Origin: Luteibacter sp. OK325 | Lineage (GTDB): Bacteria > Pseudomonadota > Gammaproteobacteria > Xanthomonadales > Rhodanobacteraceae | DNA length: 64,000 bases | Assembly: GCF_003050935.1 (NCBI RefSeq) | Contig: NZ_QAOX01000001.1 | Span: 620,001-684,000, forward strand | Direction: 5' to 3' | Shown here: piece by piece, positions 48-4,020 of the stretch | Position numbering within the stretch: position 1 is the stretch's first letter | How the letters are laid out: every line of letters starts with the position of its first letter | The notes under the pieces: generated by a model | Databases searched by the model: none | The model's input: only the letters and a program-made list of their open reading frames with translations | What the model was told of the DNA's origin: nothing | Made by a program: the position numbers and the translations under genes

Positions 48-2969
48 TTACTTCTGCTCCGCCGGCGCGCTGCCAACCTTGGTCGCTTTCGTGGCCTTGG
101 TCGCTTTCGTTGCTTTACCGTGCTGCACGTCCTTCGCCGGGTTGCCGTCGGCGTCGACGACGTGCACCTCGCCCAGGTTCAGCGCACGCACGGGTGCCTC
201 GATCTTGCTGAGATCGCCGACGATGACCCAGGTCAGCGCGTCAGGATGGATCACGGTCGTCAGCGCGTCTTCCGCAGCCTTGCGGTCGACGCCTTCGATG
301 CGGCCCTTGAGCGTCTGCACGTAGTCGTCCGGCCGGTCGTAGATGACGATACCCGTCATGGCACCGAGCACGGCCGAGGTAGTTTCGAAACTACCCGGCA
401 ATGCGCGGACCTTCTGCGCCCGGATCTTCGCGATCTCGTCGTCGGTCAGTGGCTTCGGGCCGATGACGGCACGTGCTTCCTTGAGGATTTCCGCAGCAGA
501 GTCGGCCGTCTTGTCGGTCTGTACGGGGGCGTAGAACAACATCGGTCGCTGGCCCTGGGCATCGGACAGCATGCTGCCCGCGCCGTAGGCCCAACGCTTC
601 TCTTCACGCAGGTTCATGTTCAGCCGAGAGGTGAACGTGCCGCCGAACGCGCCGTTGGCGATGCCGAGATCGAGCGCGTTCTTCGCCTTGGTCGACGGCG
701 CAAGCAGGCCGGCCAGAATCAGCGATTGCGGCGCATCGGTGCGATTGATCAGGAAGACGCGCGGTTTGGGCTGCTCGGCCACCTGACCGATATTCTTCTT
801 CGGCAGGGCGCTCGCCGGCGCCGTCCAGTCACCGAACACGGCATCCAGCTGCGGCAGGATCTGCGCCAGCGTCGTATCGCCGGCGACCAGGATGCGAACG
901 TTGTCCGGACGCAGGAAGTCCCGCTGGAAGTCAGCGAGATCCTCGGCGGTGAGCGAAGCGATCGCCTTCTCGGTACCGCTACCGGTGAACGGAATGCCGT
1001 AAGCGTGATTCTTGCCGTAGAGCAGTGGTGGCAAGGTGCGCAATGCAAGACCGGTAGGCTCGGTCTTCTCCTGCGCGATGCCCGCCACCCACTGGCCACG
1101 CACACGCTCGATATCGTCCGACTTGAAGGCGGGGTTGCGAACAATGTCGGCGAACAGGGCGAGCGACGGGGTGAGCTCGGAGTTCAGCGCGTTGAGGCCG
1201 ATCGAGCAGTTGTCGAGCGAACAGCCCGAACCGATGATCGCGCCCAGACGTTCCTTGCGACGGGCCACTTCGACCGAATCCAGCGTCTTCGTGCTTTCGT
1301 CGAGCAGCGCCGAGGTGAAGCTGGCGGTGCCGAGCTTGCGGCCCTGGTCCGCCGCATAGCCGGCATTGAACAACAGGCTGATCTGGGTGACAGGTACGGT
1401 GTGGCGCTCGGCGAGCACCACTTCGATACCGTTCTTCAGCTTGCCGCGCTGCAGTTTCGGGAAGGAGAGATCGGGGAAGCTGTCGACCGACGGCACACCC
1501 TTGCTGCGATCCACGTCCGACTTGCCGACGGTGTACGTCTTCGCAACCGGCATCACCGCTGCAGGACGCCCCGTGGCGACCTTGAGGCCGACTACCGCTT
1601 TGTCTTCGGCCGTCGGGTCGAAGCCCGGCGCCGCGGGCAGCACGGTGAGCGTGTAGTCGCCCTTGGCAAGCCAGGTTTTCGACGCAGCGAGGACCGAGGA
1701 GATGCTCGCGTTCTGCGCGCGCTCGAGGTCCTTCTTATAGGCCTCCGGGTCGTTACGATAGACCTGGCCCTCGGCGAGAATCACCGCCTTGCCGCCGGAA
1801 CCACCCACCTTCTCCAGGCCTCGCACGAAGCCGGCGCGGTTGCTGACCTTGGCACGTGCCAGTTCGTCTTCCGTTGGGCCGGTAGCCATGTAGTCTTTCC
1901 ACACGGCCGCAACGGCTGCTTCGACCTTGGCCGGATCGACGCCATTCTTGACGTCGATGGTGAGCTGCACCTGGCTGGCCAGTGCGAACGGTGCGATGCC
2001 CAGGCTCACGTCGTCTGCGAGCTTGTCCTGGTAAACCAGGCGCTGGTAGAGGCGCGACGTCTTGCCACCGCCGAGCACCGTGGTGGCGAGGTCGAGCTGG
2101 ACGGAGTCGTCACTGCCCAGTTGCGGCACCACCCACGTACGCACGATGCGCGTCTGCGCGACCTGATCGTGCTGCGTGCCGCGCGTGGAAGTCGCGACGG
2201 GGGTGATCCAGGGCTGCTGGCGAGGCACCGGCGGGCCGGAGGGGATGTCGCCGAAGTACTTCCCGGCCTTGGCCTTTGCCTGGGCCACCGTGATGTCACC
2301 GGCGAGCACCAGTGTGGTGTTGGCCGCGCCGTAGTAGCTGTTGAACCACTGCTTCACGTCGGCGAGCGAGGCTGCGTCCAGATCGACCATCGAGCCGATG
2401 GTGTCGTGGTGATACGGATGATTGGCCGGGTAGGTATTGACCAGGACATTCTCGTCCACGCGGCCATAGGGACGGTTTTCGTCCTGGCGCTTTTCATTCT
2501 GGACGACGCCACGCTGGGTATCGAGCTCCTTCTGCCCGATCGCGCCGAGCAGGTGACCCATGCGGTCGGATTCCATCCACAGGGCCATGTCCAGCGCGGT
2601 CGTCGGCACCGTTTCGAAATAGTTGGTGCGATCGAACCAGGTGGTGCCGTTCATGTCGGTGGCACCGGCCAGTTCGAACGGCTGGAAATAGGTGCCCTTG
2701 CGGTTCTCCGAGCCCGAGAACATCAGGTGCTCGAACAGATGCGCGAAGCCTGTCTTGCCGGCCGGCTCGTCGGCCGAACCCACGTGGTACCAGATGCTGA
2801 CGGCGACGACGGGCGCCTTGTGATCCTCATGGACCACGACGGTCAGGCCATTGGGCAGCTGGAACCGCGTGAAGGGGATGTCCGGAATGGCGTCGGGCGA
2901 CGTGGTGGCCGCTCCAGCGACTCCAACGGACATCAGCCCGGCTGCAAGCAGGGCGAATCGAAGCTTCAT
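48..2969 (-). CDS. M16 family zinc metalloprotease (pitrilysin/insulinase-like), exported
   Basis: This 973-aa protein has the size and two-lobed layout of full-length M16 peptidases with duplicated halves. A signal peptide is visible (MKLRFALLAAG then VAGAA). The inverted zinc motif HxxEH appears as HLFEHLMFSG at about residue 75, in the N-terminal half only. The second half, from about residue 510, looks like the inactive partner lobe. The C-terminus is rich in lysine, alanine and threonine (repeated KATKATKATK). A good ribosome-binding site (AGGAG) precedes the ATG. It is probably a periplasmic peptidase that degrades peptides or misfolded proteins. It stands alone, with the next gene upstream divergent. 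The family is clear; the substrate is unknown. Confidence 0.93.
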   Translation of the reverse strand: MKLRFALLAAGLMSVGVAGAATTSPDAIPDIPFTRFQLPNGLTVVVHEDHKAPVVAVSIWYHVGSADEPAGKTGFAHLFEHLMFSGSENRKGTYFQPFELAGATDMNGTTWFDRTNYFETVPTTALDMALWMESDRMGHLLGAIGQKELDTQRGVVQNEKRQDENRPYGRVDENVLVNTYPANHPYHHDTIGSMVDLDAASLADVKQWFNSYYGAANTTLVLAGDITVAQAKAKAGKYFGDIPSGPPVPRQQPWITPVATSTRGTQHDQVAQTRIVRTWVVPQLGSDDSVQLDLATTVLGGGKTSRLYQRLVYQDKLADDVSLGIAPFALASQVQLTIDVKNGVDPAKVEAAVAAVWKDYMATGPTEDELARAKVSNRAGFVRGLEKVGGSGGKAVILAEGQVYRNDPEAYKKDLERAQNASISSVLAASKTWLAKGDYTLTVLPAAPGFDPTAEDKAVVGLKVATGRPAAVMPVAKTYTVGKSDVDRSKGVPSVDSFPDLSFPKLQRGKLKNGIEVVLAERHTVPVTQISLLFNAGYAADQGRKLGTASFTSALLDESTKTLDSVEVARRKERLGAIIGSGCSLDNCSIGLNALNSELTPSLALFADIVRNPAFKSDDIERVRGQWVAGIAQEKTEPTGLALRTLPPLLYGKNHAYGIPFTGSGTEKAIASLTAEDLADFQRDFLRPDNVRILVAGDTTLAQILPQLDAVFGDWTAPASALPKKNIGQVAEQPKPRVFLINRTDAPQSLILAGLLAPSTKAKNALDLGIANGAFGGTFTSRLNMNLREEKRWAYGAGSMLSDAQGQRPMLFYAPVQTDKTADSAAEILKEARAVIGPKPLTDDEIAKIRAQKVRALPGSFETTSAVLGAMTGIVIYDRPDDYVQTLKGRIEGVDRKAAEDALTTVIHPDALTWVIVGDLSKIEAPVRALNLGEVHVVDADGNPAKDVQHGKATKATKATKATKVGSAPAEQK

Positions 2970-3084
2970 GGCGATCTCCTAAAGGCCTCGACGGCCCGAT
3001 TCCACCGAGGCTAGCCCGCGCGGTCCATCGGACGCAATCGGAGGTCCGGCATGGTCCGGACGGTGTCCGCTCACGCGTGGTCAG

Positions 3085-3096
3085 TGTCCGCGGACA
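3085..3096. promoter_or_regulatory. 12-bp palindrome upstream of the sigma-54-type promoter
   Basis: TGTCCGCGGACA is a perfect palindrome about 65-75 bp upstream of the -24 element at 3162. Further partial TGTCCG/GGTCCGG words lie at 3049-3070. Position and symmetry are what an enhancer-binding-protein site would show. The cognate activator is not identifiable in this window. Confidence 0.4.
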
Positions 3097-3161
3097 ACGC
3101 TGCGTCACGCGACGACCTGACAAACCTCATACGAATCAGCTGATTGCGCACCCTTAAAAGC

Positions 3162-3176
3162 TGGCACGGCGTTTGC
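3162..3176 (+). promoter_or_regulatory. Sigma-54 (RpoN) type -24/-12 promoter
   Basis: The sequence TGGCACG-N4-TTGC (TGGCACG at 3162-3168, TTGC at 3173-3176) matches the RpoN consensus exactly in both elements and spacing. Transcription would start near 3188, about 47 nt before the first micro-ORF. It is the only such match I noticed while reading the window. Confidence 0.75.
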
Positions 3177-3193
3177 GTTACTAGTCCTGCCAA

Positions 3194-3216
3194 GCCGGGT
3201 GGCCTTCCTACCCGGC
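3194..3216 (+). promoter_or_regulatory. Leader hairpin before the micro-protein pair
   Basis: GCCGGGT (3194-3200) and ACCCGGC (3210-3216) form a perfect 7-bp stem with a 9-nt loop in the predicted 5' leader. It sits between the sigma-54 start point and the GGAGAA ribosome-binding site at 3225. It could stabilise the transcript or regulate translation. Confidence 0.45.
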
Positions 3217-3234
3217 ATCGATCCGGAGAACGCC

Positions 3235-3318
3235 ATGAAGTACGAAATGCTGATGCTGCGCAGCCTGCTCGTGACCTCGATGCTGATCTGCGGCCTGACC
3301 CTCGGCCAGATGTTCTAA
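3235..3318 (+). CDS. Micro-protein, 27 aa, first of a tandem paralogous pair
   Basis: The ATG at 3235 follows a clear GGAGAA ribosome-binding site and gives a 27-residue product with a short charged start (MKYE) and a hydrophobic stretch ending LGQMF. It matches the N-terminus of the next gene at 18 of 27 positions, sharing MLRSLLV and a central CGL. The predicted topology is a single membrane helix. It lies directly downstream of the sigma-54 promoter. I do not recognise a named family. Conserved spacing, a paralogue and a ribosome-binding site argue that it is a real gene and not a chance ORF. Confidence 0.6.
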   Translation: MKYEMLMLRSLLVTSMLICGLTLGQMF

Positions 3319-3353
3319 CTACCAGCCACTCAAGAAAATACGGAACCCACGCC

Positions 3354-3548
3354 ATGAAACACGAACTCCTGATGCTCCGCAGCCTTCTCGTCGCTTCGCT
3401 CGTCGTCTGCGGCCTGATTCTCGGCAATATGCTCGCCTACACCGGCAACCCGATTCAGCTGGCCACGGTCGGCACGGCAGCCAGCGCGGTCACGAATGGC
3501 TGCGGGCTGCCGACGGATGGCATCGTCTGCCCCCGCATCGCCTCATAA
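3354..3548 (+). CDS. Small membrane protein, 64 aa, second of a tandem paralogous pair
   Basis: The product starts MKHELLMLRSLLV, closely paralogous to the 27-aa protein 35 bp upstream. After the membrane helix it carries about 37 further residues with a cysteine pair (CGLPTDGIVC) near the end, probably in the periplasm. A weak CGGAA ribosome-binding site lies about 10 nt upstream of the ATG. The stop lies 7 bp before trmL, so trmL could be read from the same sigma-54 transcript. The function is unknown. The paralogy implies duplication followed by loss or gain of the tail. Confidence 0.6.
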   Translation: MKHELLMLRSLLVASLVVCGLILGNMLAYTGNPIQLATVGTAASAVTNGCGLPTDGIVCPRIAS

Positions 3549-3555
3549 TGGGGGT

Positions 3556-4020
3556 ATGCCCCACGTCATCCTCTTCCGACCCGAAATACCGCCCAACACG
3601 GGCAATGTCATACGCCTCTGTGCCAATACAGGCGCGGCCCTGCACCTGGTGCGACCGCTCGGATTCGAGCTGGACGACACCCGTCTCCGCCGCGCCGGCC
3701 TGGACTACCACGAGTTCGCAAGCGTCGCCGTCCACGACGACCTGAGCGCCTGCCTCGCCGCGATCGGCCATCCACGGGTATTCGCTTTCTCAACCCGGGG
3801 CCAGCGCCTGCATACCGACATCGCGTTTGCCGAAGGCGACGCACTCCTCTTCGGATGCGAAACAGCGGGCTTGCCCGACGATGTGCTCGATGCCATCCCT
3901 GAAGAACATCGTGTCCGTTTGCCGATGCGACCCGGTAACCGCAGCCTCAACCTGTCCAACGCCGTGGCCGTCGCCGTGTTCGAGGTCTGGCGACAATCGG
4001 GCTTCGACGGCGCGTCCTGA
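3556..4020 (+). CDS. trmL: tRNA (cytidine/uridine-34 2'-O)-methyltransferase TrmL
   Basis: This 154-aa SPOUT-class methyltransferase has the length typical of TrmL, which 2'-O-methylates the wobble base of tRNA-Leu isoacceptors using SAM. Diagnostic features are the start (ILFRPEIPPNTGNVIRLCANT), the LFGCETAGLP segment and the C-terminal RSLNLSNAVAVAVFE, which forms the trefoil-knot SAM site. The ATG at 3556 was chosen because the homologous region begins there; upstream codons in frame overlap the preceding small gene. Confidence 0.93.
   Translation: MPHVILFRPEIPPNTGNVIRLCANTGAALHLVRPLGFELDDTRLRRAGLDYHEFASVAVHDDLSACLAAIGHPRVFAFSTRGQRLHTDIAFAEGDALLFGCETAGLPDDVLDAIPEEHRVRLPMRPGNRSLNLSNAVAVAVFEVWRQSGFDGAS

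Follow-up and report, generated by a model that had tools for sequence, protein, structure and literature searches.

Introduction

The Psp and Zra systems combine sigma-54 and an enhancer-binding protein with small envelope proteins. The locus of Luteibacter sp. OK325 analyzed here resembles them in that an enhancer, an IHF-like site and a sigma-54 promoter appear to drive small membrane or envelope proteins, presumably as part of an envelope response. However, the response regulator found here scores 244.6 bits against the PspF model (cut-off 443.55 bits) and 263.2 bits against that of ZraR (cut-off 760 bits), and for the peptides Pfam gave no match and NCBIfam none above cut-off. Among the NCBIfam models, the regulator comes closest to that of the PEP-CTERM response regulator, which recalls the PrsK/PrsR system, but here too it stays below the cut-off (332.1 against 502.6 bits).

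A second group of relatives comprises the MacAB, DarBCD and ADOP exporters, with which the exporter described below has in common, by Pfam, an HlyD-type adaptor, an ABC ATPase and MacB_PCD/FtsX permeases. The adaptor exceeds the cut-off of the general adaptor model TIGR01730 (121.5 against 94.9 bits), but it stays far below that of the NCBIfam equivalog for MacA (49.4 against 342 bits), the permeases stay below that for MacB (54.2 and 61.5 against 966 bits), and the exporter proteins are below the curated cut-offs for DarC and ADOP. Moreover, the ATPase and the four permeases are encoded here by separate genes, and a regulator and a kinase are found in the same operon.

A third group comprises AcrZ (PMC7267776) and similar small membrane proteins that bind transporters; AcrZ is a single-helix small protein whose gene is under common control with an efflux-type pump. 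Compared by description only, the micropeptides of this study seem similar, as they are of the single-helix type and their genes appear to be under common control with an exporter; in contrast to AcrZ, they are multi-copy, sigma-54-controlled and often carry a tail with two cysteines.

Results

The window, that is, the whole stretch of DNA analyzed, is 64 kb long (C1:620001-684000) and belongs to a genome of 4.94 Mb. The locus was compared with 70 loci from 68 genomes, which were selected by protein match only (family matches with E <1e-6). Thirty of these loci were the best homology matches and 40 were hand-picked for genus spread, so that they represent a part of the 141 genomes with a peptide match. 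The features of the locus are as follows.

48..2969, minus strand: M16-family peptidase gene, divergent, a conserved neighbour (60 of 70 loci)
3064..3069, plus strand: TGTCCG half-site, its first base 21 bp ahead of the palindrome (54 of 70 loci have TGTCCG at precisely this offset, -21)
3085..3096, no strand assigned: enhancer palindrome TGTCCGCGGACA (exact in 66 of 70 loci, one mismatch in 4 of 70)
3134..3146, plus strand: IHF-like element AATCAGCTGATTG between enhancer and promoter (one mismatch to WATCAANNNNTTR)
3162..3176, plus strand: sigma-54 -24/-12 promoter TGGCACGGCGTTTGC, TGGCACG-N4-TTGC (all 70 loci agree with the consensus at 10 or more of its 12 positions)
3194..3216, plus strand: hairpin of the 5' leader, probably incidental (z -1.34)
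3235..3318, plus strand: ORF1, a 27-aa transmembrane-only micropeptide (present in 18 of 23 same-genus loci)
3354..3548, plus strand: ORF2, a 64-aa micropeptide with one hydrophobic helix and a two-cysteine tail (homology, pN/pS)
3556..4020, plus strand: SpoU-family methyltransferase gene (trmL), neighbour in 65 of 70 loci

The two small ORFs are present as the earlier note, made from the letters of this DNA alone, had read them: their translations are identical at 18 of 27 positions, and the ribosome-binding site that it had assigned to ORF1 is a GGAG at 3225-3228. Each peptide has one strongly hydrophobic stretch in the hydropathy analysis. Within the genus, the pN/pS of ORF1 (all values are uncorrected proportions) was 0.53 in frame and 1.04 and 1.31 in the shifted frames. 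For ORF2 it was 0.167 across the first 27 codons and 0.544 for the whole ORF, again with values above 1 in the shifted frames. Because the in-frame values are low and those of the shifted frames exceed 1, both ORFs are read as proteins.

The downstream methyltransferase gene, for which we assume the name trmL, starts 7 bp past ORF2 and so may share its sigma-54 transcript. The product is a tRNA-modifying enzyme.

The promoter that the earlier note called a perfect RpoN element has GG at -24 and GC at -12 at the standard spacing with near-consensus flanks, and TGGCACG-N4-TTGC occurs once in exact form in the 64-kb window. If one mismatch is allowed, the window contains two matches, against a chance mean of 2.33. 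As this is the chance level, the promoter alone proves nothing and conservation decides. In the 70 loci, the element starts 57-74 nt ahead of the first start codon. The 12-bp palindrome was likewise found where it had been proposed, at enhancer distance, lying 65-69 bp above the -24 element in 70/70 loci. With up to one mismatch, TGTCCGCGGACA has a sole match in the window, for which the chance mean is 0.37 and at least one match occurred in 35 of 100 shuffles. It is the presumed binding site of the NtrC-type response regulator described below. In the whole genome, matches with up to one mismatch number 27, compared with 12 for the reversed control; it follows that most loose matches are background and that the palindrome alone is a poor predictor.

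Between enhancer and promoter lies the IHF-like element, which was scored against WATCAANNNNTTR, taken by us as the IHF consensus. A site with up to one mismatch is present in 52 of 70 loci, compared with 4.5% of the control sequences, which were resampled with a first-order Markov model rather than shuffled with exact dinucleotide counts. In 59/70 loci, the best-fitting site begins at -28 or -29 relative to the -24 element. The site is not universal: 18 of the 70 loci have at least two mismatches, and eight of these have their best match at a different offset. In the region 3134-3145, another 12-bp palindrome, AATCAGCTGATT, was considered as a further activator site and was dropped in favour of the IHF-like site; because the same place fits WATCAANNNNTTR in other genera, we regard it as the Luteibacter form of this element. 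An enhancer followed by an IHF-like site and then a sigma-54 promoter is a textbook layout.

Further loci gave the same picture. From a source table of 40 rows, 30 of them with a locus, 28 new loci were combined with three of the genome itself (G000; family matches with E <0.01). Duplicates were removed, as were the second members of tandem pairs, which lack their own promoter; this left 25 loci, each the first of its cluster, in seven genomes. All 25 have both the promoter and the palindrome (up to one mismatch), separated by 65-68 bp. Three of these loci are the main one beside trmL, and the other 22 are not next to this gene.

A hairpin leader had also been proposed. The leader does fold at 3194-3216, but weakly. 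Against shuffles, a same-genus locus (L012) gave z -2.77, and loci of other genera gave z -0.39 (L036) and 1.69 (L051), in a coarse comparison of five folded stretches of unequal extent, one of which (L019) lies inside the ORF. These scores and the lack of an Rfam match in 2970-3620 do not support the hairpin as a conserved RNA element. No sigma-70-like promoter was detected on either strand in 2960-3620, and one terminator-like site was found on the minus strand at 3369-3342 (0.4 expected).

The ORF2 query matches 141 of 233 same-family genomes, including 130 of the 192 good ones, and 18 of 26 genera; the six relatives with a name that it retrieved all belong to Luteibacter. A profile of 22 members gave matches in 98 of 398 genomes of the order, 97 of them from the same family; the lone match outside (G360, E 8e-4) is marginal. 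Thus, the conservation of ORFs and promoter in relatives, on which the claim of the earlier note had been made to depend, was found in Rhodanobacteraceae. The members are of the single-helix membrane type with 27-73 aa, and up to 10 family matches occur in one genome. Among 120 distinct proteins (family matches with E <1e-5, weaker ones dropped), 24 have 27-29 aa and 73 have 60 aa or more. Glu4 is kept in 118 of them, and Leu8 and Cys19 in 114 each. Two tail cysteines are present in 71 of the 73 forms of at least 60 aa, in 60 cases in the form DG[VILM]xC, and the tail of the longer forms is probably periplasmic.

The earlier note knew of no described family with this layout, and none was recognized in Pfam, NCBIfam, Rfam or the PDB. 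The window peptides had no Pfam match at E up to 1 and no PDB match, and their three NCBIfam matches (E 0.014 to 0.25) were all below cut-off.

In one genome (G105, L223-L226), the peptide gene, enhancer and promoter lie within a dispersed repeat at the four chromosomal places examined. The copies are 80-92% identical over ~0.8-1.2 kb around each peptide gene, as if this were a mobile cassette. The copy at L226 is interrupted by ~1.1 kb with one ORF, which we take to resemble an IS110-type transposase.

Five sites with the enhancer-promoter motif exist in the genome of Luteibacter sp. OK325, namely three peptide loci with four genes (two of them outside the window, on C15 and C10), an exporter operon and a permease pair. 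A sixth match of the pattern, on C2, has GGACC instead of GGACA. The genome has one gene with a Sigma54_DBD domain.

The exporter operon encodes, in this order, an HlyD-type adaptor, an ABC ATPase, four FtsX-type permeases, an NtrC-type response regulator and a HAMP histidine kinase. The Pfam check covered the regulator, kinase, adaptor, ATPase and two of the four permeases. The regulator (P0001) has the receiver, Sigma54 activation and HTH_8 domains expected of the NtrC type, and the GAFTGA position reads GAYTGA in its translation. The kinase, judged by eye, seemingly has two helices with a short loop; this layout would, we presume, fit sensing inside the membrane or via a permease, as in Bce systems.

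At the permease pair site, the first gene has MacB_PCD and FtsX domains. When aligned with the ADOP model of a duplicated permease, a related permease pair (L130) falls on its two halves. In L129 (7252-9808), a permease pair stands behind the motif with no adjoining ATPase gene among the ORFs listed.

The motif was found in 187 of 233 same-family genomes, compared with 2 of 233 for the reversed pattern, and in 170 of 398 genomes across the order. Where motif and orthologous regulator gene were both readable (53 genomes, G104 left out, the nearest motif taken if there were several), 50 genomes have the two on the same strand, with the regulator gene 6.2-26.0 kb downstream of the motif; in the remaining three, they are on different contigs. 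Beyond the family, in 14 genomes from three other families of the order, chosen from those with a motif match, an adaptor homologue (38-50% identical, tblastn) lies directly behind the motif in 13; the exception is G347. The 38 motif places from 37 loci precede an adaptor (15), a peptide (9), a permease (2) or other genes (12, three of these with a poor promoter).

Genus g2 of the same family has the motif in 16/16 genomes and a peptide match in 0/16. In 11 of its 16 loci (one per genome), the motif precedes an exporter adaptor or permease. It looks as if the exporter operon is the older target and the peptides are a later addition. Further neighbours were seen in g2. In both of the loci that were extended (L221 and L222, from two genomes), the switch precedes a methyltransferase gene, which we take by likeness to be pcm, and a gene for a TolC-like outer membrane channel; the one TolC-like protein that was checked passes the TolC-family cut-off. 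In L103 and L112, the motif precedes a 324-aa ORF with a likely signal peptide and a 387-aa ORF that looks hydrolase-like by eye.

Peptide, regulator and motif do not coincide everywhere. Genera g4, g5 and g21 likewise have regulator-like matches near 1e-200, but no peptide was found in them and, G040 excepted, no motif match. A g3 genome (G017) has a peptide match and no regulator match at 1e-90, a g18 genome (G138) has only a weaker regulator match (7e-205), and G205 has peptide and regulator with no exact motif match.

In two genomes of another family of the order (L166 and L167), a 55-aa peptide stands behind the switch, 116 nt past the palindrome start. It apparently has a single helix, but its sequence is unrelated and is unmatched by the family profile.

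Discussion

The genome comparisons establish a peptide family, its conservation at the protein level, its enhancer-promoter architecture and a switch that it has in common with the exporter operon. The proposal of the earlier note that dedicated small membrane peptides are under sigma-54 control is strongly supported by the conservation across genera. Its suggestion of envelope responsiveness is supported indirectly, by the exporter operon with its regulator and kinase behind the same enhancer and promoter. As these elements also precede the operon, a sigma-54 two-component exporter regulon probably has the peptides among its outputs. The best reading, which we hold with moderate confidence on the basis of the sequence data, is that they are inner-membrane accessory micropeptides of an envelope or efflux response.

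The following order of events may be proposed. The histidine kinase would sense an envelope condition, and the NtrC-type response regulator would bind TGTCCGCGGACA. IHF would bend the DNA between enhancer and promoter, and sigma-54 polymerase would then switch on exporter and peptides together. The peptides would be located in the inner membrane and, via conserved residues such as Glu4 and Cys19, would either modulate the exporter permeases or the kinase or form an assembly with them. The first steps are suggested by the comparative evidence, and the action on a membrane partner of the same regulon is what we infer as most likely. That the operon's own response regulator binds the palindrome is highly probable, the link being a genomic one. 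It also seems very likely that the peptides are produced and remain in the membrane. We only tentatively name the exporter or the kinase as their partner.

The main rival explanation is that the peptides are cargo of a MacAB-like system, that is, precursors of exported signals, pheromones or antimicrobials, and that the kinase senses the peptides or their export. It would agree with the weak match of the adaptor to the darobactin exporter adaptor DarC (59.7 bits, cut-off 450), the TolC-like gene behind the motif in two genomes of one same-family genus, the divergent M16-family peptidase next to most loci (60/70) and the paired tail cysteines of nearly all long forms (71/73). However, a fifth of the distinct proteins (24 of 120, those of 27-29 aa) have no tail for export, the hydrophobic part is the most constrained part of ORF2, and no consistent signal-peptidase site was seen by eye on the family sequences. 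We therefore consider this explanation unlikely.

It could also be thought that these are membrane-active, self-inhibitory peptides resembling type I toxins, which would slow the cell under stress, as they are very short, hydrophobic, dispersed and multi-copy, with up to 10 matches per genome. This appears quite improbable, for neither strand of the region showed a sigma-70-like promoter, Rfam gave no match there, an enhancer-dependent promoter would take the place of antisense control, and specific residues (Glu4, Leu8, Cys19) are kept.

The position of trmL, 7 bp past ORF2 and neighbour in 65 of 70 loci, would allow the promoter to serve mainly this gene, with the small ORFs as leader ORFs or part of a regulatory RNA. 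But promoter and palindrome are kept without trmL in 5 of the 70 and 22 of the 25 loci, the first 27 ORF2 codons are under constraint as protein (pN/pS 0.167) and Rfam gave no match, which makes this explanation very improbable.

Chance matches of promoter and palindrome in GC-rich DNA, which the chance-level number of one-mismatch promoter matches in the window might suggest, are rejected in view of the co-conservation in 70/70 loci and the excess of the motif over its reversed control (187 against 2 of 233 genomes).

Within the favoured reading of accessory inner-membrane micropeptides, a wider idea is possible, though doubtful: the transmembrane micropeptides may be a spreading family that was recruited by a two-component system coupled to an FtsX/MacB-type exporter. 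Their genes would move as cassettes, each equipped with an enhancer, an IHF-like site and a sigma-54 promoter, and inside the membrane the peptides would tune the exporter or the kinase, either as subunits that can replace one another or as feedback ligands. If true, it would be a class of regulon output that we have not seen described, and the unrelated 55-aa peptide behind the same switch would be a case of convergent recruitment.

Conclusions

The micropeptide family and the sigma-54 regulon are real, conserved and apparently undescribed, and they are built of parts of known kinds. In openly licensed papers, as far as titles and the beginnings of abstracts tell, no description of such a sigma-54/FtsX-MacB/two-component/small-protein system in Rhodanobacteraceae was found, and TGTCCGCGGACA occurs in one unrelated paper of the openly licensed literature.

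Further members, which gene callers may overlook, can be searched for by means of the enhancer sequence. With an unnamed family and a switch kept in every locus examined, the system offers a test case for single-helix micropeptides on ABC exporters. For the Rhodanobacteraceae, it defines a regulon with an enhancer sequence, a candidate regulator and kinase, an exporter and peptides, which one set of deletions could test.
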